Assembly: GCA_027577595.1 (NCBI GenBank)
Contig: JANBRJ010000078.1
Location: forward strand, 18,834-82,833
Direction: 5' to 3'
Length of the DNA: 64,000 nt
Source of the DNA: Coemansia sp. RSA 487
Taxonomy: Eukaryota > Kickxellomycota > Kickxellomycetes > Kickxellales > Kickxellaceae
A program made the position numbers and the translations under genes. Shown here in pieces: positions 1 to 22,547 of the stretch; the first letter of the stretch is position 1; each line of letters starts with the position of its first letter. Below the pieces are notes generated by a model, which saw nothing but the letters and a program-made list of their open reading frames with translations, did no database searches and was not told the DNA's origin.

Positions 1-1811
1 AATGCCAATAGCGGCATTGTACTAGTATTGCTATAGCTTGCAAGTATATAATTAGTACTTGGAGAGTCTCTTGTTTCCTCTTGGTTTCAAAGCTATGGAA
101 ATGAAGAAATGCATATATGTATAATGTTAAAAAGTATGTTTTAGTGAAGAAGAGATGTAAAATGCAAGCACACCTGCGGTTGACAGGTGCGTTGCACAGA
201 AACTATATGCATGGGAGCATTGCTAAACGTTAAACAGGAGAAACAGAGCTAAAAGAAATGGCTTTATTTAGCAAAAAAGGTATAGTATAAAATAGTCATG
301 GCAGCTTACCTTTTGAAATGGAAAATAGCCAGGAGTGTAAAGGCTAATAGATAATAGTACAAGAGAAAAGAAAATATTGGTGAGCAAGAACAGCAGTTTA
401 TTATATAGTCATGGAACAAATAGGACTGAACTTTTCGCTTGCACTTACTGGTATTTTCTTTGCTCTATCATGAATTCAGATAGCATTAGCTTTCCAGTAA
501 TGCTTGTTTATTGTGCTGCCTACAAATGATCACATCTCCAAACCTAAAAGAACGAAAACCCGCTTGGAAGTCACTTTGTCTGGGCTAATGTACAAAGAGG
601 CAAAGCGGTTCAAAGGCAAAGCTACAGCTTATATATATATATATATATACATAAAGCGGCTTCTAATATTTTACTAAAAGAGGGCCTCCTTGCAAAGCAT
701 AAAGCATAAGCAGTGCTGCGGAAGTGCTGTGATTGTTTCGTTCTAATATTTAAGCTTCCACGCACCTAAAAGGCGAGTGTCAACTAAAATTCGAGAGAGA
801 GTCAAAATGTAATTTAGGCTATATCAACAGCGCTCCGTGTGTCTAAAAAGCAATTTAAGCCACTATTTCACGAGCTGCGAGAACTCCCTAAGTGACACCC
901 TTGTGACAGTTTCAATAACTTTGCTAAAATACGCAAGATCCTTGGGTAGATGCCAGGGATTATCCTTCCCTATGGCTATACCATGTCATATTCGGGAAAA
1001 GATAAGCATAGCGTAGTTACCTGGCATGACAATTTCTAATTTTCACTTTTCAAGTATAACATTTGAGTTGGGTAAACGGAACCAAAGTTCCTCGTTTTAT
1101 TCAAACAACAGCTTGCCTTTTATGGCCATTAAAACATTATGTAAAACATTCTGATAATGATGGCGGCTCGGCAGCTCGAGAGCTTAATCGTTAGCACACT
1201 TGCTGTTCATTAGCTAGGACCTTCTTAGAAAAAGCTCATTTAGTTTTATAAAAAAGGGTCTACTCACACAGTGAACGACCAGCGTTTATTGCTTAAAAAG
1301 AAAAGAAAACACCATGCTTTTTCCTGGCATAACATTCAAATCAATCAAGTCGGGGATTAAATAGCCATTACATAGCACATATACTCCCACTTTTATCAAA
1401 GTAAACGCAAACTCTTGGCGTTTTCCTAAGCAAGCAAGACGCAGCAATAATGTATTATATAAAGTCCCCGAATGCAAAGGACTCAACATGCTTGACTAGA
1501 GACCACATCATTCCATATCAATTAATATCATAATATTGAGTATATCATGGAGTGCCCATACATGTCCGGATTGTTTTTTCTTTGCTTTCTGCCAAAGCTT
1601 AACATCATATTGCCGCTGCTTTTTGTTGATATCAAAAGATAATGAGTAGAAAAACGATTTTGCTGCACAGAGCCATATTGGAAATTTCAAGGTATAAAAA
1701 ACAAACCAGTGGGGTCTCTCCAAACATTTCACGCTTTTTTTGTTTACTTCCGTAAGAGCAAGTAAGCACAATAGAGCACTTTGGCGCTTTTAACATCCAT
1801 ATAGTCGTCAG
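1..1811. other. AT-rich region without a recognisable gene
   Basis: No reading frame here resembles a known family, and the short open frames on the minus strand (about 1286-1489 and 1508-1771) lack convincing starts and domains. The base composition is much richer in A+T than the coding part of the window. Apart from a TA dinucleotide run near 630-650, I see no structure I can name. It may be intergenic DNA or a decayed transposon. Confidence 0.6.
629..650. repeat. TA dinucleotide microsatellite
   Basis: A perfect alternating A/T run of about 20 bases. Simple repeat with no evidence of function. Confidence 0.9.
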
Positions 1812-1927
1812 ATACCAGAATTGCCACGAGTAAAGGCAAGGATAAGGGCAAAGGTAGCAAAAAGGCAGGGCCCAAAGAAGTAAAGGGCAACAGCGACTCC
1901 AAGAAAGACAAGCTGCAGCAGGAGTAA
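1812..1927 (+). CDS. possible lysine-rich terminal exon (orphan)
   Basis: After an acceptor-like GTCAG, one frame reads about 37 residues rich in Lys, Gly, Ser and Asp (contains KGKDKGKGSKK and ends KDKLQQE) and then stops with TAA at 1925-1927. The composition looks like a basic C-terminal protein tail, and it stands out from the AT-rich surroundings. A second frame over the same bases is also open for about 24 codons. I found no upstream exon, so this may be a gene remnant or chance. Confidence 0.2.
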
Positions 1928-2188
1928 ACTCAAGGCCAAGAGCAACGCCAAGTCATCTGAAAACGCGGTCAAAATCTAAGCTTCCAGGAATACATACTCT
2001 CCTAGTTTCTGCCAGCATTTCACATAACTGTTCCATGCAACGTATATATCTCTAACCGGATGGCAGTGGGTTTATTGGTTGCTCTTATGTTAGTCAATAC
2101 ACTACTCCTCTCGCCAGCGAAAGAAAAGAATAAGGAGAAAAGAGGCAAATATTTTGTCCATCCGTGGTACAGAATGTCTTAAAGTTAG

Positions 2189-2676
2189 CTAGCAACCAGC
2201 CCCGCATCCCAAGTACGTCGAGCCACCGCGAGAGCTCTCAGCTGACTGGATTTCGCCCTGGCAGCAGCAGCAACAAATGCTGCAGCACCATATGGTAAAC
2301 GAGCGAAAGCATCCCTTGTCATTCTCAACAAGGTCGGTGCTGGTGCTGGACGCTGCGCTCGATGGCCGCCGGCCATACTTGCTGTTTGTGTTGGGCGCCT
2401 GCGGCGGATAGTATGCGCCTTTGCCCTCGTCCATATCGCTAAAGCGTAGTGCACCTTGCTATAAGGATGACAAAAGTAAAATGCAATAGAAATTGGTGTG
2501 CGAATTGAAAAAGAGGAAAATAAGTGAGCGAAAGAGAAAACTAAAAGCAGAACACTGAAAATCCAAATTATGCCGCCTTTCTTTCGTTTTTTAGTGGCTG
2601 ATTGTTGTGCTTTGTCCATTCGCTTGGCCAGCTCTTCCAAATTCTCAACCTGCTTGGCCGTTACAAGAAACCACAT
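2189..2676 (-). CDS. putative small protein with a C-terminal cysteine cluster
   Basis: The best-supported part is a last exon at 2458-2189, preceded by an acceptor-like CTTATAG. It reads from QGALRFSDMDEGKG through a Ser/Pro/Asn-rich middle to a hydrophobic Cys cluster (WCCSICCCCCQG) and ends GCGAGC. Clusters like this are often palmitoylated or form a cysteine-rich membrane tail. The first exon is uncertain: a frame starting MWFL at 2676 could join in phase 0 through a weak donor (GTAACG), giving roughly 94 residues, or the long frame through 2676-2459 may be the true reading. I do not recognise the family. It is transcribed away from the WSS1 gene. Confidence 0.3.
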
Positions 2677-2981
2677 GGAAAATGTAATGATCTTGAGTGA
2701 TGCTCCCGTAATTCATGATCTAAAGGAACCCTGATGCACGAAAACGCAAAAACCATGCCTGCCAAACAACCAAATCGTTTTCCCCTAGCTTTATTCTTTA
2801 TATCAAATTAATACATCACAAAAACATAGGCAGACAGCCATAATAGCGCGCCAGATGTTTTCTGCCGAGCTTGAACTACAAAGCTGAACTTGGGCACACC
2901 AAGAGAAAAAACCACCCCTCAACTGGATGCACTTGAAAACCACCCGCTGGGCTTCCATCCTCTCTTGTATAACATATTCCC

Positions 2982-3851
2982 ATGACGAACCCGCTGATTG
3001 GAAGTATCCACACGCTCAAGCGGGAGCCAAAGAAGGATGAGGCGCAGCTGCTGCTCCAGCGTATTGCAGCGCTGGTCCGGCCGATCATGCAGAAGCGCGG
3101 GTGGAAAGTGACAAGGCTGCGCGAGTTCTACCCACGCAACGCCAATCTCCTGGGCCTCAATGTCAACCAAGGGATGGAGATACGGATACGGCTGCGTCCG
3201 GCACACGATAACTCACAGTTCCTCAGGTACGAGGACCTGTTGGGCACCATGCTACATGAGCTGGTTCACATCGTGCGCAGTCCACACGATGCCGAATTCT
3301 ACAGGACCCTCGATGAGCTGAAGGCAGAGGCCGAGATTTTGCTTGCCAGGGGATACACAGGCGATGGCTTCTACTCGGCTGGCCACAAGCTCGGTGCAGG
3401 TCTACCGCACAGCGTGTCATTGCACATGCGACGCGAGGAAGCTTTGCAGGCAATCGAGGCACGCAAGCGGCTCCAGAAGCTGGGTCTTGGTGGGCCGCCT
3501 CGCAAACTTGGTGGCGAATTGGGCATTCCAGGCACACCGCTGGCTGCAGCACAGAAGCAGCGCTACACGCCGGCGCAGATGGCGGCAATGGCTGCGGAGC
3601 AAAGGCGGAGAGACGAGAAATGGTGTGGCGAAGCAATAGCTGGGATTGTTGAGGAAACCCAGCCGCGTGGTAGCGATGACGATGTCGTAGTAGTAGTTGC
3701 TGTTGCTGCTGGCGGAACAAGCACTACGTCCGACCGCGGCAGTAGCAACCGAAGCAACAAGCCTCGTGTAATCGTTGTCTCGGATTCCGACTCGGACTCA
3801 GAGACTGCCGCAACAGCAGATTGTGCCCTTGTAGTTGTCGATGATGATTGA
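2982..3851 (+). CDS. WSS1: Wss1-type WLM metalloprotease (DNA-protein crosslink repair)
   Basis: A single exon of 289 residues, close to the size of yeast Wss1 (269). The N-terminal half is a WLM/SprT-like zinc protease domain. HELVH at residues 92-96 supplies two zinc ligands and the catalytic Glu, and H102 in the SPHDAEFY motif is the expected third ligand. The middle is a basic, Ala-rich linker (about 140-215). The tail has two SUMO-interacting motifs, each hydrophobic residues followed by acids: VIVVSDSDSD near residue 260, and ALVVVDDD at the very C-terminus. In yeast, Wss1 cleaves proteins crosslinked to DNA and works with SUMO and Cdc48. The start codon begins the conserved domain with little room upstream. 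Confidence 0.93.
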   Translation: MTNPLIGSIHTLKREPKKDEAQLLLQRIAALVRPIMQKRGWKVTRLREFYPRNANLLGLNVNQGMEIRIRLRPAHDNSQFLRYEDLLGTMLHELVHIVRSPHDAEFYRTLDELKAEAEILLARGYTGDGFYSAGHKLGAGLPHSVSLHMRREEALQAIEARKRLQKLGLGGPPRKLGGELGIPGTPLAAAQKQRYTPAQMAAMAAEQRRRDEKWCGEAIAGIVEETQPRGSDDDVVVVVAVAAGGTSTTSDRGSSNRSNKPRVIVVSDSDSDSETAATADCALVVVDDD

Positions 3852-4019
3852 CTGGTGTCTGCACACACCTCTTAAAAAAGCATATTTCTCTCTCCTGCTC
3901 TGTCTATACGTTTTCCTCTTTTTCTTTTTAATTTTGCATTTATTTGTGTTTTTAAAATTCGGTTTATCGCCAACGCCCTGTGCTCTTGTTCGATTGACAA
4001 TTAGCTGTCACGTAACAAA

Positions 4020-15145: not shown

Positions 15146-16837
15146 CTACTCGTTATATAATAGCCGTCTTATTTTGTCGGCATAATTGTCGTATAAACCA
15201 CTGTCCAGAGCTTTACGTAGCTCATTATCATAGACACTAGTCTGGCTAAAGTACACATTGACGAATATAAATCTGGGACATAGAACTGCTAGCGCTATTG
15301 CTGAAATTGCTAAAGACTCCGTTGAAATATCAGGTGAAAGACGCATATGCCAAAATCGAAGTTGACAGTTAAGCGGATAGTAACAAGCGTAGAGACTATC
15401 AGTAATTGTTCTGCTTTGCATTATTCTCAGCTCAGGGTCAGCTTCTCTGATGCGGCAAGTAAAATCCGTCATATTTGGAAAGAGTTTAACAATATTAAGC
15501 ATCTCAAGCAGGTTTAGCGCAGTTACGTCAAGAGTGAAGATTCGGATATCCTCTGCGTAAGAACACGAGCGAACGGCATCGATGAGATACTGATATGAAT
15601 CCTTGGCGAGTATAGATAGAATCTGCGTCGCTGGAGAAATAATACCAATGACAAACTCAATAAAATCCTTAACAGAAAACCCCATATGAGATCCAGGCAT
15701 ATGTTGTATGGAAAGGTTGCGGAGCTTTGGGTATTTTTCTTTTGAAAACACTTTGTATTTTTGAAGCATACGGACGGTATCAGCGTCAAGTTCAATATCC
15801 AAGTGTTCTAAGGTGTCGCTGTTTCCTCTAAATAGCGTATCGTCTGAGAATATGTAGTCGGTGTATAGTCTAAGGTACTGTAGTACCGGAAACGGGGCTA
15901 TTGACTTGTCCACTTTGATTTTACCATCGTCTCCAGAGCCACCAAGAATCTCCAGCTCTGTAAGTTCTGGATATACCTTCCAGCAGCCATCGTCACGATA
16001 AACAAGATGTTTGAAAATTTCACTACCCTGATCCTCAATAACCAATGATTCCAATGTAGCTGCCGATTTTCTTACAATCTTGTGAGAAAATTCATTATCG
16101 TAAGGGTGGTCGGAACTGATGCGAGAAAGTTCAGGGATATATTGCTCGAATAATCTTTCGTTAGCTATGTAACTGGGACATGAGACATAGCTCCTAAACT
16201 CAGCTTTTCTAAAAAGGATTGAGAGAAACAGGCCAGCATCCCATTCGTTGGATAATAAAGTTTGAGGGCTTGTCGAAAACTTTGTGTCATAACAAAACCA
16301 GAATTCGGCCTTTTGAAGATTCGATAACGATAGTCTCATGCGCTGTGCAATCCAGTTGAAATATCTGTCCTCGTCTGCACTTCTGGTAACAACTGTCTTC
16401 TTTACACTGTTTGTTATGCGAAAGTGCAATGATCGAGCTTTGGGGAATACGAGATCTTCTGGCCAGATCTGATCGAGCGTCTGGAACTTCTCGTCATTCA
16501 GCTGGTCGACTATGTCGTCAATTACAATATTGACTTTTTTAACATAGGGAACAAGCTCTGCACGCTTTTTCGTGATACTGTACGATACGTGCGTAGAAGC
16601 GAATTCACTTTTGTCAATATGTGCTGCCAAGGCCAAGGTCGCTTCTCCATAGAGATACTCAAGCGCAAGTATCCTCCAAGAATAGCTAACGTCGTGGAGC
16701 ACATGCCATCTCTCTTTCGTCTTTTTGTCCTTCGAATTTGTATATTCGCGAAGACGATAGCTTGGACTAACGCAGTAGCTAACAATTGTTTCAGCGATAT
16801 GAAGTGGTAGTTTTTTGAATGGAGACAAAGCAGGCAT
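15146..16837 (-). CDS. F-box-like / leucine-rich-repeat-like protein of a lineage-expanded family
   Basis: I start the protein at the ATG at 16837, giving 563 residues. It then begins MPALSPFKKLPLHIAETIVSYC, which looks like a degenerate F-box helix (LP-x-H-x-x-x-x-I). The frame is open for 40 more codons upstream, but those residues are unlike a protein start. The rest alternates strands and helices with scattered Leu/Ile and many aromatic residues. Segments such as YPELTELEILGGSG, FPVLQYLRLYTDY and KYPKLRNLSIQHMPG resemble irregular leucine-rich repeats. Such proteins usually recruit substrates to SCF ubiquitin ligases. From memory, very similar 'LPLH-x-x-x-x-IV' proteins are numerous in Kickxellales genomes. 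The target is unknown. Confidence 0.6.
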   Translation of the reverse strand: MPALSPFKKLPLHIAETIVSYCVSPSYRLREYTNSKDKKTKERWHVLHDVSYSWRILALEYLYGEATLALAAHIDKSEFASTHVSYSITKKRAELVPYVKKVNIVIDDIVDQLNDEKFQTLDQIWPEDLVFPKARSLHFRITNSVKKTVVTRSADEDRYFNWIAQRMRLSLSNLQKAEFWFCYDTKFSTSPQTLLSNEWDAGLFLSILFRKAEFRSYVSCPSYIANERLFEQYIPELSRISSDHPYDNEFSHKIVRKSAATLESLVIEDQGSEIFKHLVYRDDGCWKVYPELTELEILGGSGDDGKIKVDKSIAPFPVLQYLRLYTDYIFSDDTLFRGNSDTLEHLDIELDADTVRMLQKYKVFSKEKYPKLRNLSIQHMPGSHMGFSVKDFIEFVIGIISPATQILSILAKDSYQYLIDAVRSCSYAEDIRIFTLDVTALNLLEMLNIVKLFPNMTDFTCRIREADPELRIMQSRTITDSLYACYYPLNCQLRFWHMRLSPDISTESLAISAIALAVLCPRFIFVNVYFSQTSVYDNELRKALDSGLYDNYADKIRRLLYNE

Positions 16838-16946
16838 AATTACAGCTGAAGTGAAATCTATATATAAATTGGAAAGAGCTGGAAATGGAAAAGCTAAACA
16901 ACAGCGCATAAGTTGGAGGGAACCTCCCATGCACAACTGACATGCA

Positions 16947-17050
16947 GTGTTTTGCAAAACTAATTACATCAAACAGATGTATACGCGGCGAATGGTGAAA
17001 GATTTGCGGTGGCAATAATGCATCTTGCATTTCGAGAAAAAGTCACTTAC
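16947..17050 (+). repeat. left terminal inverted repeat of the Fanzor transposon
   Basis: Matches the reverse complement of 20772-20875. Identical blocks include GTGTTTTGCAAA at the outer end, AATGGTGAAAG, TTGCGGTGGCAATAA and AGAAAAAGTC. Over the inner 70 positions I count 55 identities, and 12 of the 15 differences are transitions. The outer 34 positions also align, with one single-base gap. Confidence 0.88.
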
Positions 17051-17351
17051 GTCAGCTGGCGTTATACTTGCGCTTGGAAGCAAGAGGCGCAAACGGAGCT
17101 TTGTGGAGAAGGCTGTCCTGCTACACACCTATTATTTTACACTAAAACAGATTGGCTTCTTGGTCACTGTCTGTGCTTTCAATGTGGTTAGTTAATATTG
17201 GCCCTAATAAAACCTAGCAATATGAAGAAATACTGCCACTACCTTGAACAAGAACAACAACCAAGCCATGCACTCTTTGCCAGACGTAAACATATTGGAA
17301 GAAGACCGTCACTCAAATAAAGAGCCAGAGAACATGTTTGCATGCATGCGC

Positions 17352-17823
17352 ATGTTGATGGATGCTTCATTGAGAAAGCCTCAAGCCGTTTCTGCTGCCA
17401 AAAAGAGAAAAGCCAATGGCAACGAGATCAGGATTAGTGGGCGTGTTGGCACACGAACAGAGCACTTGCTGGCCTACATTTCAAATGCAATCGATGTACT
17501 GAGTGGCAAAGAGTATGAAAAGCTACCATCTTGTGCTGGACAATGCTCCAATCCATACGCCATTAGCCATTCGAGACCTAATATAAAACAGACGATACAA
17601 GCGCCTATATCTGCCTCCATACTCACCCTTTCTATATCCCATTGAGGAGCTTTGGTTCAAGGTAAAATCGGGGTTGCACAGAACAGCGCTTATAGCAAAA
17701 GTCAGACTCAGTGATAGAATATGCAAGGCAGCCAACAAAGTGACAACATCAGACTGCCAAGGCTACATCAGACATTTCATGGCATTCTTCTCTCGCTGCA
17801 AAGACGGAGAAACAAATCTTTAA
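17352..17823 (+). pseudogene. Tc1/mariner-type DDE transposase remnant
   Basis: Only the C-terminal half of a DDE superfamily transposase is recognisable. The first frame contains LRRP-like LRKPQAVS, then GRVGTRTEHLLAYISNAIDV, matching the region before the second catalytic Asp. A one-base shift near 17515-17523 is followed, in the next frame, by LVLDNAPIHTP (the second Asp of the catalytic triad), an in-frame TAA at 17584-17586, then RLYLPPYSPF and PIEELWFKVKSG, which carries the third acidic residue (Glu). The frame ends at 17821-17823. The DNA-binding N-terminus and the first catalytic Asp region are missing, and about 60 residues seem deleted after LRKPQ. It is dead as a transposase but types the element. 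Confidence 0.87.
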
Positions 17824-17998
17824 ATCTCCTTTTTTGACAAACAAAGCTTGTACTCAATCCTCTGATTGCTGTGGATAGTTTGAAACCCCCTTCCTTCAGT
17901 TAAAATAGCCAACGTTTCCGATTTTCTTTTGTAACTGTGATAACGATTAGGCTTGAGGCAATCATATTTCAATGGTGGGTTGGCAACTCGCATGTTGG

Positions 17999-18039
17999 AA
18001 CAATCGTATTGTTGGAAAGCATATATCATATGCTTCCAA
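17999..18039. repeat. two adjacent inverted repeats upstream of the Fanzor gene
   Basis: AACAAT-CGT-ATTGTT (17999-18013) is a perfect 6-bp stem. It abuts TTGGAAAGCATAT-ATC-ATATGCTTCCAA (18012-18039), a 12-bp stem with one bulged A. Both lie inside the transposon between transposase and Fanzor. They could be a transposase-binding site, a nested MITE or RNA structure. Function unknown. Confidence 0.6.
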
Positions 18040-18367
18040 ATTACCTAGTTCAATTGTTGTGGTGTTTGTACGGCTATAAAAGTCAGGCTGTGTATGAAAA
18101 ATAAAGACGAGGAACTTTAGCTCCGTCTGCTCTCTTGATATTCTTGTGAAAAGTGATATATCAGTATCACAAGTGTTCCCAAGCAAGCTAAAGAACGAAA
18201 AGAGAATGTGTGCCTGGTTAGGAAAGACAGCGTGAGGGCGCTTGTTTTCCTTTTCGCTTTTGTTTCTCCTTGGATTTCATTTGACATTTTATTTCTAGTG
18301 GTAACGCCAAATACACCTTTCAGTGCATATATTATATTATCTGCTCTTGTTTGCTCACCCATCACCA

Positions 18368-20571
18368 ATGGGCAACGAGAATACATCAGACACAGGGACA
18401 CGCGTTATAAAGTGCCCCCTAGAATCCTTGGCGAATGACAGAAATGACATTACCAAGGTAAACGACTATGTTGTAGTAGCCAACACAGCTTCTGCACACA
18501 TGTATGGGCTAGCTCGGTGGATATTTGTCCATGAGCTGGCTACTCACAAGCAGTTCGATCCCTCTGTGTACCTGGAAAAGAGGTTTTTTGGTGGGGTATT
18601 CCTGCACCTCACCAAGCGGAAAGCCAGGCCGAATGTCAAGGCTGAAATCCAGGAGTACAGGAGGGTCATACGCAAGCACCTGGATGCGTACAAGGAGGCT
18701 GCTGGCATCACAGAGTTTGATATAGTCAACCCAAACCAGACAGCACAGTTCGAGGCAGCAAGAGTTTACACTGCGTATGTAAATAATATACAGACCAAGT
18801 TTGGTCAGTACCTTCGGCATGCAGTAAATGTTTTGCTGAAAACTCGGGAGCGCAAGAGGGACCTTGAGGATGCAATGAAGGGCAGAACAACGGATGAGAT
18901 AAAGGAAGTGTATGAAGACCAGATTTGGAAGCCTGGGTTGGAGTTGAAAGAGGCGATAAAGCACCGCAATACTGTTCTTCCAGTTATCACTGTGGGCGAC
19001 AAGAACATCGGGGACATGCTTGAACCTGTGTTGACAGCATACGACAACGACTACGAGTTTGAGGAGGAAGGCATTTATTACGATATCAAAGCGCATCCAA
19101 AAAAGCACTTCAAAGCATTCTGCTGCTTGGCAGTGCTTCTTGAGATGAACGACTACAAATCTTTCCAGTGTTCCCCATTGCGGAAGTCGTTTGTGCCGGT
19201 GCACATCGAGATTGACACCGTGGTATTATGTCGAAGCATAATAGGCTGGAGCTATAACGCGAAGTCCCCCATTGAAAGCTATTGGTATAGATTTCTCAAC
19301 GAAAAATCGAGGGTGCTACGGATAAGAAACGGCTTCAGATTCTATGGCACAATACAGACTGACGGCGTGTCTGTGTCAGTGATCAAAAAGACCACAGCGG
19401 CAAAAGAAAAAAGCAGCAGGAAAGCGAAGAAAAGGGACACTGAGGCAAATGCTGCCATCGAGACCAGCGGAAGTGGGCTGACAGCTCCAGCTGAGAGTGC
19501 AGCTACTGGCTCATTGCCAGAGGACCAGCCCAAAAAGCCCAAGCAGCCCAAGAAGCGAGAAAAGCCAGGAGAAAAGAAGTCGGGTGGGTTCGCATATATC
19601 CACGAGCTTTCGCCAGAGCAGCTGGCCAACATGAAAAACCCAATTTTCATGGATCCGGGTCGCAAGGACATCGTCTTCGGCATGACGGATAAGAGCACCT
19701 CTGAGGAAAAAGCACTTTTCCGATACACACGGAGCCAGAAGGCCAAAGAAACCCGGACAACCTGCTACCGCAAGCTGAGAGAAAAGCTCAAGAAAAAGCA
19801 TCCAGACAGCAACGAGATCAAGGCTGCCGAGGCTAGATTGGCTACTTTTTCGTGCACATCGATATTGCCAGATAAATATGAGCAATATGTCAGGACGCGT
19901 GCTGCTGTTTGGCCAGTGCTGAGTAGATTCTACACGAACACCATGACCACCAGCAAGAATGGGAACAGCCCTCAGCCAATTCATCGCAAGCTTCGGCAAT
20001 CTGCCCACATCAAGCAGCAACAAGCCGATGAGCGGCTAGCAAAGAGGATTCGGGTGACATGCGACGATGAAAAACCCACTGTGGTCCTAGGCAATTGGAG
20101 TGCGCCAATGGCTCACTACCATAAGCCTATACGGGGGGTCGGATTCCGGCGAATTCTGAGGAAGAAAGGGTGCCAAGTCTATCTTGTTGGCGAATTCAGA
20201 ACGTCAAAGGCTTGCCCAAACTGCCTCACTGGCACTCTCAAGAAGTTCATGAAAGTACCCAACCCCCGCCCCTACCAACGGAATAAGATGAAAGAAGTCC
20301 TCTGCCACGGTCTCCTTAAGTGCACCAACGAACTATGTATGGGGCCGTGGAAGCGGATGGCGTTTTAACTCCTCGTTCACGCATGTACAACCGAGACCTC
20401 GCAGCCGTTCTCAACTTTAGGCATATTTTCCATGACCTTCGCGATAACGGCGAGACTCCAGTGCGCTTTTGTCGCAGTCAGCCTGTAGCCGTTGCTACCA
20501 CTGATGAGCAGCTGCCCAAGAAGAAAAGGAAGACGGCTGCGGCAAAGAAGCCGGCGAGGACGAACAAATAA
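18368..20571 (+). CDS. Fanzor (TnpB-like) RNA-guided nuclease, frameshifted near the C-terminus
   Basis: From the ATG at 18368 the first frame runs to a TAA at 20366-20368; the rest continues in another frame to 20571, about 734 residues in all. The N-terminal part has the long helical Fanzor layout, followed by a Lys-rich insertion near residues 345-405. The RuvC core follows: D429 in FMDPGRKDIV, a GNWS element near 576, the alternative-position catalytic Glu E609 in VGEFRTSKACPNC, zinc cysteines C616/C619 and C652/C657, and the last Asp in MYNRDLAAVLNFRHI. That Asp lies in the second frame (codon 20395-20397). The C-terminus carries a classical nuclear signal (PKKKRKTAAAKK). Fanzors cut DNA guided by an omega RNA encoded at the 3' end of the gene. 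The frameshift suggests a recently inactivated copy unless it is a sequencing error. Confidence 0.9.
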
Positions 20572-20601
20572 CAACCACCACGACATTCAGCCAAGGTTAT
20601 A

Positions 20602-20641
20602 GCCGCGGCAAATCCTAGTTCTAGGATAGGACATGCTGTCC
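20602..20641 (+). ncRNA. three small hairpins 3' of the Fanzor gene: omega RNA candidate
   Basis: Within 40 bases, starting 30 bases after the stop codon, there are GCCGCGGC (20602-20609), TCCTAG-TT-CTAGGA (20613-20626) and GGACA-TGC-TGTCC (20629-20641). TnpB and Fanzor guide RNAs are transcribed from the 3' end of the gene, are structured, and run towards the right end of the element. This is the right place, but expression and the true RNA ends cannot be read from DNA. Confidence 0.35.
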
Positions 20642-20771
20642 CTTTTGCAGGTAGGTGCTCAAACAAGAGCTGAAGAGATAAACATCTGCGGCTGCTTCTA
20701 GACAACAGTACTAATCATTTGTACTTTCTCGTGTTTTCCTGCTTTGCACTGACGCATATGCCATGCCTGCG

Positions 20772-20875
20772 CAAACGACTTTTTCTTGGATCGCAAAATG
20801 CGTTATTGCCACCGCAACCCTTTCACCATTCAACGCGTGCACATCTTATTTAGCGCAATTAGCTTTGCAAAACAC
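20772..20875 (-). repeat. right terminal inverted repeat of the Fanzor transposon
   Basis: Inverted partner of 16947-17050; on the + strand it ends in GCAAAACAC. Its outer end is about 150 bases before the PRP46 start codon. Confidence 0.88.
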
Positions 20876-21023
20876 AGTGTGCAACCCATACTACGCATTA
20901 TTTGTGCTGACAACACTGCAAAAATATTTTAAAGAAAATAGTTACGCGAAATCATGAAATATTTAAACACAATAGTCCTTCAAGTTTGTGTGTCATCTAT
21001 ATTCAATCATCAATTTTCGAATA

Positions 21024-22547
21024 ATGACAGAAAGACACCCCCAGCCAGAGGAAATTGAAACTAGCAGCCATTTACTTGAGCCGCTAATGCAAAGCGTAGT
21101 CAACACCACGCATGGTTTGTTTCGTGGGACTCCAACACCACCTAGAGCAGCGGATATAAACCCCAAGGGAATGTCATTGAAAATAGCGAGCAAATACCGC
21201 GACGAATATTTGTCTTCGCGCAATCTTCCACAGGTAGTTGAACAGCCTATTGGCACTAAAAACGGCGTTAGCTCAACAACGCCGCTTTCTCTTACGAGGG
21301 TTTCAACACAAAAGCTTATTACTGCAGGAGATCAGTCCAAAGACAGCAGAAGCATTGCCATTGATGTAGCTAATGTGGACGAGGAGGTACAAAAGGTTCT
21401 AGAGGGGCTTTCTGGCAAGCAGACAAAAGTAAAAGCAAAGAAAGCAAAGAAACCAACACGGGAATTGGTTTTGGCAGCAGCAGAAAAAGGCGCGCAAGAA
21501 GCTAGCAACCTGTCTCCACCTCTTGGCCAACAGATCGTGCGAAAACGAGTATACGAGCCGGTAAAACCCGAATGGCACGCGCCATGGAAGCTTATGCGCG
21601 TAATCAGCGGCCATATTGGCTGGGTGCGGTCGCTTGCGGTTGAGCCTGGGAACAAGTGGTTTGCTTCGGGATCGGTCGATAGAACAATAAAGATCTGGGA
21701 TCTGGCATCAGGCACACTAAAGCTGACACTGACTGGACACATTTCGCCAGTTCGTGGACTGGCGGTCTCGTCTCGCCACCCGTATCTATTTTCGTGCGGC
21801 GAAGACAAGCAGGTCAAATGTTGGGATCTAGAAACCAACAAGGTGGTGCGGCAGTACCACGGGCATCTGTCAGGGGTCTATTCGCTTGCGCTCCATCCGG
21901 TGCTAGATGTTCTGGTCACTGCAGGTCGCGATTCGGTTGCGCGTGTCTGGGATATGCGTACAAAGAAGCAAGTACACGTTCTGGCAGGGCACAAGTCGAC
22001 GATATCGTCAGTGCAGTGCCAGGAGGCCGATCCGCAAGTGATATCAGCGTCTATGGACTGGACTGTGAGGCTGTGGGACCTGGCGGCAGGAAAGTCGATG
22101 AACACACTGACACACCACAAGAAATCGGTACGTGCACTGGCGCTGCATCCGACAGAGTTTGGATTTGCCAGTGGCGGTGCCGACTGCATCAAGCAATGGA
22201 GATGTCCAAGGGGCGATTTTGTTCAGAATTTTGAGGGGCATAATTCGATTATAAACACCTTGTCTGCGAACAGCGACGGCGTTCTTTTCTCTGGGGGCGA
22301 CAACGGTTCGATGCGGTTCTGGGATTGGAAGAGCGGACATTGCTTCCAAGAGGCAGATACCATTGTGCAGCCTGGATCGCTTGATAGCGAAGCCGGAATA
22401 TTCTGCTCGACGTTTGATCGCACAGGGTTCCGCCTGCTTACTGGTGAAGCAGACAAAACTATCAAGATCTGGAAGGAGGACGAAGAGGCAACCGAAGAGT
22501 CCTACCCGCTCGACTTTAGGCCCAGCCTAAGCCGCCGGCACCATTAG
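21024..22547 (+). CDS. PRP46: Pre-mRNA-splicing factor Prp46 / PLRG1 (WD40)
   Basis: Starts at the ATG 21024 ([10 protein letters not shown]), giving 507 residues; a short in-frame non-ATG extension is excluded. After a disordered N-terminus with a Lys-rich stretch ([12 protein letters not shown]), the PLRG1 signature [21 protein letters not shown] starts a seven-bladed WD40 propeller to the C-terminus. Blades end in motifs such as [23 protein letters not shown] and [11 protein letters not shown]. Prp46 is a core subunit of the Prp19-associated (NTC) complex in the active spliceosome. It converges with FMP25, leaving 84 bases between stop codons; an AATAAA at 22579-22584 may be its polyadenylation signal. 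Its 5' region includes the right end of the Fanzor transposon. Confidence 0.95.

Follow-up and report, generated by a model that had tools for sequence, protein, structure and literature searches.

A Fanzor1 gene and a decayed Tc1-like transposase between shared terminal inverted repeats in Coemansia

The unit in the window

Our subject is a unit of a cut-and-paste DNA transposon in the genome of Coemansia sp. RSA 487. We refer to the whole 64,000 nucleotide stretch analysed (G000:C78:18834-82833) as the window. The unit spans positions 16945-20877 (3,933 bp), with exact tips at 16945 and 20877, and carries the relic of a Tc1-like transposase gene together with a gene for Fanzor1, a eukaryotic protein related to CRISPR-type nucleases. 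Both genes are in one orientation and lie between terminal inverted repeats (TIRs). An earlier note, made from the DNA letters alone, had proposed such a unit at 16947..20875, with repeats of about 104 bp, in what seemed an early-diverging fungus. The unit is real and the host was rightly judged, Coemansia being a member of the Kickxellomycotina. The tips, though, are 2 bases further out on each side and the TIRs measure about 110 bp.

The left TIR, with tip CAGTGTTTTGCAAAAC, is at 16945..17055 (plus strand) and the right TIR is at 20767..20877 (minus strand). Each was delimited by repeat search, pattern search, and gapped alignment. The repeat search found inverted arms at 16975-17051 and 20770-20846 (77 nt, ungapped, 81% complementary), which are the longest of four inverted pairs within 15-23 kb of the window. 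In the gapped alignment, imperfect similarity runs inward from the tips for about 110 bp, and the score is 122, whereas none of 500 letter shuffles scored above 31. When up to 3 mismatches are tolerated, the tip pattern CWGTRTTTTGCAAARCTARTTG has just two matches in the 64-kb window, inverted with respect to each other, at 16945 (plus) and 20877 (minus). The largest count in 100 shuffled controls was 0. The alignment and pattern shuffles rule out a chance origin of the repeats, as the earlier note had held.

The transposase relic (17268..17823, plus strand) was recognised by a DDE_3 match at 17512-17694 (E 2.6e-12), by tblastn with a 466-residue relative, P0055, and by comparison with another copy of the element, C41. 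Note that copies are named after their contigs and that the window copy is C78w. The relic consists of a short N-terminal piece, with a probable ATG, joined at about 17361 to residues 311-466 of P0055. The C-terminus is present, there is one in-frame stop, and the first catalytic D is within the deleted part. Relative to C41, 718 bp are deleted. A figure of 270 bp, relative to copy C19, was superseded because C19 is itself deleted elsewhere.

The first frame of the Fanzor1 gene, assigned by homology, runs from a probable ATG to a stop that follows a 1-nt frameshift (18368..20368, plus strand). The frameshift is the loss of one base between 20346 and 20347, which copy C10 shares. Comparison of frames placed the Fanzor C-terminus, with the third catalytic D (NRDLAA) and a PKKKRK tail, in another frame at 20320..20571 (plus strand). 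Since the frameshift displaces both, the window copy has no single-frame Fanzor1 motif. Judged from its sequence, it is a dead derivative, complete from TIR to TIR, with a transposase deletion and a Fanzor frameshift. Hence, the "intact" unit of the earlier note is complete end to end, but not functional.

The window Fanzor matches Parasitella parasitica Fanzor1 (PpFz1), in the PDB, with E 7.5e-89, and the C19 copy does so with E 2.5e-103; the earlier note had correctly named both the DDE transposase relic and the Fanzor, in the same orientation. Only PpFz1 and SpuFz1 matched among PDB sequences at E <= 0.001. We also compared an AlphaFold model of the C19 protein (pLDDT 63.5, pTM 0.55, only 16 rows) with solved structures by Foldseek. 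Ranks 1-7 were Fz1 chains (PpFz1, SpuFz1, and GtFz1), while a Fanzor2 chain was at rank 27 (E 0.13). Identity to PpFz1 in the Foldseek alignment was 29%. On sequence and predicted fold, the protein of this family is a Fanzor1, closer to that group than to Fanzor2 or TnpB. By homology, it is predicted to be an RNA-guided nuclease. In an alignment of 16 rows, where 8 of the other 15 are 87-100% identical to the first, catalytic D428 and the alternative E608 are invariant, D676 is nearly so, T331-D332-G333 (the TDG motif of the WED domain) is invariant, and the zinc-finger cysteines are conserved. The catalytic residues and TDG motif align to PpFz1 and SpuFz1. In a Pfam scan of the window Fanzor, no family reached the cut-off (the best was Cas12f1-like_TNB, E 0.011); PF26935 is pre-assigned to most relatives in the protein database.

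The published Fanzor1 motif is D-X(125,275)-[TS][TS]XX-C4 finger-X(5,50)-RD (Bao & Jurka 2013, PMC3627910). Open, motif-complete frames, ending in the PKKKRK tail, are found in five of the 16 copies checked (C19, C5a, C82, C71, and C60). The motif is also present in the shorter C23 frame, and C5a is without the literal string EFRTS.

A dispersed and decaying family

We used the whole unit to search its own genome and found at least 101 matching pieces (40 of 240 candidates scored). Near-full-length relatives are C1, matching query positions 2-3929 (3,928 bases), and C71, matching 1-3890 (3,890 bases), of 3,929. All 40 scored candidates matched the last 316 bp (of 218 candidates), and all 40 matched the first 214 bp (of 202). 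These candidate numbers are not a copy count because the two ends resemble each other. With the Fanzor protein as query, 65 of 209 candidates were scored and 74 matches obtained; we sorted these into 36 family loci and 17 more distant Fanzors.

Tips scored at least 12 of 17 against the consensus in 45 of 46 left ends and 41 of 44 right ends. These ends include 24 left and 26 right drawn from the 40 + 40 end-query matches. Not included are six left ends whose tip is missing, truncated, or unalignable (C17, C148, C40, C54b, C151, and C3) and three right ends that lack their outer part (C23, C5b, and C52). Flanks vary from copy to copy. When 7 of the 11 joined flank pairs were searched in the genome, all seven matched only their own locus and no empty site was found. 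Since the same tips occur at unrelated sites, TIRs, transposase, and Fanzor are one mobile element. None of the outcomes that the earlier note had named as refuting it came about: further copies have matching ends and enclose the Fanzor, and the two repeats are parts of one element. The ancestral element, almost certainly, was a Tc1-like transposase and a Fanzor1, in one orientation, between TIRs of about 110 bp.

The most complete example of this ancestral order is C41, with a TIR, transposase residues 54-466 in interrupted frames, and Fanzor up to the contig end. The C19 copy measures 6,435 bp from tip to tip and comprises a TIR, a 298-aa transposase frame that retains all three catalytic acids, an antisense Ty3/gypsy block (RVT_1, E 6.9e-32), and a 733-aa Fanzor reading from ATG to stop. 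The block stands where the C-terminal part of the transposase would be, and 11 copies span its left junction (C19, C82, C22a, C23, C5b, C39, C7a, C10, C52, C49b, and C3). The transposase frames of C81 and C99 also enter the block, and C5a has the block without the junction. Gypsy-free copies include the window copy, C1, C71, C140, C54b, C112, C41, and C28. Because the block is antisense, at one junction, in 11 copies, it has been carried along with the transposon.

The 718-bp transposase deletion of the window copy is shared, at the same junction within a few bases, by 11 of 19 copies (the window, C1, C71, C52, C54b, C112, C49b, C3, C99, C28, and C5b). A second deletion, of about 440 bp, removed part of the transposase N-terminal region in six of the 19 (C19, C7a, C22a, C82, C81, and C140); C23 and C10 differ. 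Each of the two deletions is found both alongside the gypsy block and in its absence, four combinations in all, which indicates exchange between copies or repeated events. The C81 copy has a stronger DDE_3 match (E 8.2e-23). By a count made by eye on the frames of C19 and C81, 34 residues lie between the second D and the E, which is DD34E spacing. No uninterrupted, full-length transposase was present among 92 matches in the genome (91 of 109 candidates scored); none of these extends over more than 273 residues of P0055, out of 466. Copy C41 has the best match, over residues 194-466 with one stop, plus N-terminal pieces. Contigs end inside element copies on C4, C8, C13, C21, C22, C41, C54, C81, C112, C140, C144, C148, and C151. 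Hence, young, near-identical copies may be missing from the assembly.

Reduced copies take several forms. In C17, C60, and C119 the transposase was lost, via three different deletions, and the Fanzor retained. In C2, at a fourth deletion junction, most of both genes is gone. The ghosts C5g, C23g, C40, and C69 have both ends, the 3' region, and little else, with C5g also having the transposase N-terminal part. A tree of 17 Fanzor copies is star-like, with long terminal branches. A clean subfamily tree was not obtained, and gypsy-bearing and gypsy-free copies interleave.

Family homologues are recorded from at least four other Coemansia strains. The C19 copy (L005:1829-4027:-) is 100% identical in its Fanzor protein to P0002, which carries the name of Coemansia sp. 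RSA 1813; on this sequence evidence the copy is probably shared by near-identical strains. The left flanks of two copies, L103 and L104, agree for about 28 bp outward from the tip and differ beyond that. That the L103 flank is a repeated sequence was rejected, since it is single-copy in the genome. At the C82 copy (L013), a frame for a cyclophilin-type peptidyl-prolyl isomerase, identified by eye, lies directly downstream in the right flank. PpFz1 binds cyclophilin through its FRI domain (Xu 2024, PMC11423790); the neighbour of C82 is probably a coincidence.

The more distant Fanzor set, of best about 38% identity, is simply everything outside the main family by our count (17 loci). Two members are L049 (G000:C54:61700-66700) and L050 (G000:C66:74600-79300). 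The L049 Fanzor sits downstream of a different Tc1-type transposase relic (HTH_Tnp_Tc3_2 + DDE_3). The two loci agree at 90.6% until about 130 bp beyond the Fanzor stop, where there is a hairpin-like sequence (by eye), and no long TIR was found in comparing them.

Selection, insertion sites, and the 3' region

Among 17 copies, pairwise ratios of nonsynonymous to synonymous substitution (dN/dS) for the Fanzor had a median of 0.275 (136 pairs, range 0.20-0.44). Four copies (C19, C7a, C22a, and C82) have both genes long enough for direct comparison. In these, pooled dN/dS was 0.27 for the Fanzor (bootstrap 0.22-0.33) and 0.77 for the transposase (0.58-1.13). With six copies, the transposase value was 0.61 (0.47-0.82). 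In the non-coding parts of the copies 70% of private changes are transitions, and the earlier note's remark that differences are mostly transitions holds. We corrected for transition and CpG bias, by sequence context, with a mutation spectrum from the non-coding parts of the same elements. For private changes, the corrected ratio in the Fanzor was 0.63 (17 copies; 348 nonsynonymous, 230 synonymous, 10 nonsense); in the transposase it was 0.92 (19 copies; 161, 75, and 7, respectively). Compared with neutral expectation, in a binomial test, p was 1e-7 for the Fanzor and 0.57 for the transposase. Private nonsense changes numbered 10 in the Fanzor, where 29.5 were expected, and 7 in the transposase, where 10.1 were expected. 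The Fanzor was kept by purifying selection while the transposase, in the same copies, drifted.

We compared the DNA next to the tips in 44 left and 42 right flanks, after removing one near-duplicate and adjusting three right-tip positions. Left flanks prefer A at -5 (30/44), C at -4 (18/44), and A at -3 (31/44). The sequence A.AT[AG] occurs in 23 of 44 flanks on the left and in 6 of 42 on the right, against a background of 0.068 (Fisher p 2e-4). Similarly, AT[AG] is found in 28 left versus 11 right flanks, and the exact SpuFz1 motif, CATA, in 8 versus 0. The two sides differ at -3 (Fisher p 5e-4) and -4 (p 3e-4). T occupies position -2 in most cases (39 of 45 left tips, 36 of 41 right tips). 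Immediately outside the tip, the left side has A (31/45) or G (14/45) and the right side most often C on the plus strand (22/41). This adjoining base is linked to the TIR base at +1 (stratified permutation p 0.0037), also for right ends alone (p 0.014); for left ends alone the link is not significant (p 0.17).

In the window copy, TG lies outside both the left tip (16943..16944) and the right tip (20878..20879). Most copies have T and a purine outside the left tip; TA would be expected for a classical duplication. Among the 11 two-ended copies, exact TA on both sides is found in 3, TA/CA in 5, TG/CA in 2, and TG/TG in the window. Hence, aligning copies, as the earlier note had advised, gave exact tips but did not uphold a clean TA-duplication account. 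The insertion point of the window copy is the short common upstream region of two divergent genes, encoding a hypothetical protein (15146-16957, minus strand) and a WD40 protein (20988-22547, plus strand).

The related Spu-1 element has extra conserved bases, CA, upstream of its left repeat, and the target-adjacent motif (TAM) of SpuFz1 is CATA (Saito 2023, PMC10432273). The PpFz1 TAM is ATN (Xu 2024, PMC11423790). Because these resemble the left-sided A-N-A-T-R, on the side where a TAM is expected, we read this mainly left motif as a putative footprint of the Fanzor TAM.

Fanzor1 RNA passes through the right repeat into the flank and includes the TIR and the target-site duplication (Yoon 2023, PMC10711439; Saito 2023, PMC10432273). 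By the position reported in these papers, the candidate guide RNA (omega RNA) region of the unit runs from the Fanzor stop to the right tip (20572..20877, plus strand). Just after the stop is a conserved block (window about 20576-20625), whose columns 20-40 have a mean pairwise identity of 0.96. Neighbouring 20-column windows are mostly at 0.80-0.91, with one gappy window at 1.00. Taken whole, the 3' region has a consensus folding energy of -24.4, compared with -11.1 +- 4.0 in 60 column shuffles (0/60 as low). When the last 57-117 nt were folded as a consensus, short hairpins appeared in which two-sided changes were few, so we claim no solved guide RNA. An Rfam search returned one sub-threshold match only (E 0.94). 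Nonetheless, the region is the likely guide RNA source, and the guide would be expected from the flank past 20877.

Interpretation and known systems

We propose that the family is of the Tc1 type, non-autonomous, and mobilised in trans, and that its Fanzor helps the carrier to persist. As a whole, we regard this account as probable. Copies with a broken or deleted transposase would have multiplied in trans, because deletions and a Ty3/gypsy insert recur in copies at unrelated sites. RNA from the Fanzor stop-to-right-TIR region, extended into the right flank, would guide the Fanzor to an element-free site with the TAM-like A-N-A-T-R on its left side. Cutting of that empty site, and repair from a filled copy, could then restore or spread the element. 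Such a cycle would explain why selection kept the Fanzor and not the transposase. For a retention or homing role of the Fanzor, taken by itself, we consider the case evenly balanced.

Several observations weigh against this account. Of the eight reduced copies named above, five (C2, C5g, C23g, C40, and C69) are without most or all of the Fanzor, which is therefore not required in cis for movement. No intact transposase able to act in trans was found, though the assembly breaks within many copies. The selection contrast also has limits, since a direct Fisher test of private-change counts between the two genes gave only a modest difference (p 0.038). Interrupted Fanzor copies show reduced omega as well (0.67, versus 0.54 in open copies), so part of the signal predates the breaks. 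Neutrality of the transposase is expected because the four copies compared had already lost N-terminal sequence and, through the gypsy insert, the C-terminus. Right flanks have weaker preferences of their own (T at -3, 19/42; A at -4, 19/42; A at -5, 18/42), and the left motif might reflect a directional preference on the part of the transposase. Covariation in the candidate guide RNA is weak, with few two-sided changes.

If the Fanzor were mere cargo between Tc1 TIRs, of no benefit to the element and carried until it decayed, copies without a working gene would be no surprise. Eleven of the 16 copies checked, the window included, are without an open, motif-complete frame, and ghosts without most of the Fanzor exist. 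We nevertheless think this reading unlikely, given that, within one set of copies, dN/dS is 0.27 for the Fanzor and 0.77 for the transposase, and that private nonsense changes in the Fanzor amount to about a third of expectation. Moreover, three deletions took the transposase and spared the Fanzor (C17, C60, and C119), while one took most of both (C2). Domestication of the Fanzor for a host function, with the transposon only a past vehicle, would fit the open frames with a PKKKRK tail in five copies. It is hard to square with 36 loci, a star-like tree with long terminal branches, and right ends that have also multiplied, and we judge it very improbable. That the repeats derive from two separate elements, with the Fanzor between them by chance, is refuted by the near-full-length matches of C1 and C71, and both tips are common to other copies. 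Nothing was found in favour of this idea, which we effectively dismiss, and the same near-full-length copies rule out nested elements.

The closest competition concerns the left motif. A target preference of the transposase, rather than a Fanzor TAM, is a real possibility, if the less favoured one. In its support, AT[AG] is present at 17 of 25 left ends not known to carry a Fanzor and at 11 of 19 Fanzor carriers. Symmetric Tc1 insertion, however, should give equal preferences in both flanks, where -3 and -4 differ, and the motif fits both PpFz1 ATN and SpuFz1 CATA. A stronger form of our own account is that the Fanzor, not the transposase, is the selected part, acting for its own copy through RNA-guided cleavage of empty sites. 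Only TAM-adjacent insertions would then persist, and the tip-adjacent T-purine (left) and pyrimidine-A (right), linked to TIR type, would record break-repair propagation rather than TA-duplicating transposition. We hold this version to be rather doubtful.

Compared with known systems, this looks like a new family, as the earlier note had suggested, but its kind is known. Bao & Jurka (2013, PMC3627910) had already reported Fanzor1 in combination with a Mariner transposase, TIRs, and a TA target. The Tc/Mariner-type elements PGv-1, PUl-1, and PUl-4 of that paper likewise have Fanzor1 with a Mariner-like transposase, or Fanzor1 alone with Mariner TIRs, and they lie at TA targets. Their host differs, whereas the Coemansia family is large, multi-copy, and has exact TA on both sides in only 3/11 cases. 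Coemansia is nowhere named in that paper, and we found no paper on a Fanzor in Coemansia among the open-access papers searched. Spu-1 of Spizellomyces punctatus, the source of SpuFz1, is likewise a multi-copy Fanzor1 within inverted repeats, with many Fanzor-less ghosts and Gypsy/Ty3 inserts (Saito 2023, PMC10432273). Its repeats are 30 nt, and its Fz locus, of about 2.1 kb, has a single open reading frame, whereas the Coemansia family has TIRs of about 110 bp and transposase remains. Unlike Spu-1, it also has one gypsy insert common to at least eleven copies. PpFz1 (PDB 9cf0-9cf3; Xu 2024, PMC11423790) is the closest solved relative by sequence and predicted fold. A stretch of about 108 residues between the aligned RuvC pieces of PpFz1, taken as the FRI insertion, is missing in the Coemansia Fanzor. 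For the transposase, Tc1-like DDE transposases of Mucoromycota (Rhizopus, Mucor, Parasitella, and others) are 42-61% identical to the C81 relic among the organism-named hits listed (120 of 538), and have a DDE_3 domain and the same C-terminal ending. No Coemansia protein is among those 120 listed matches.

To the known kind, this family adds a selection contrast with the transposase, for which we found no precedent in the parts of the Fanzor literature examined, and a left-sided insertion motif. Both are testable predictions. Through the family, further uncharacterised Fanzor1 proteins with open frames and a predicted TAM become available. Its 36 Fanzor loci, ghosts, Fanzor-only derivatives, and homologues in other strains would allow a test of whether a Fanzor holds its element in place.

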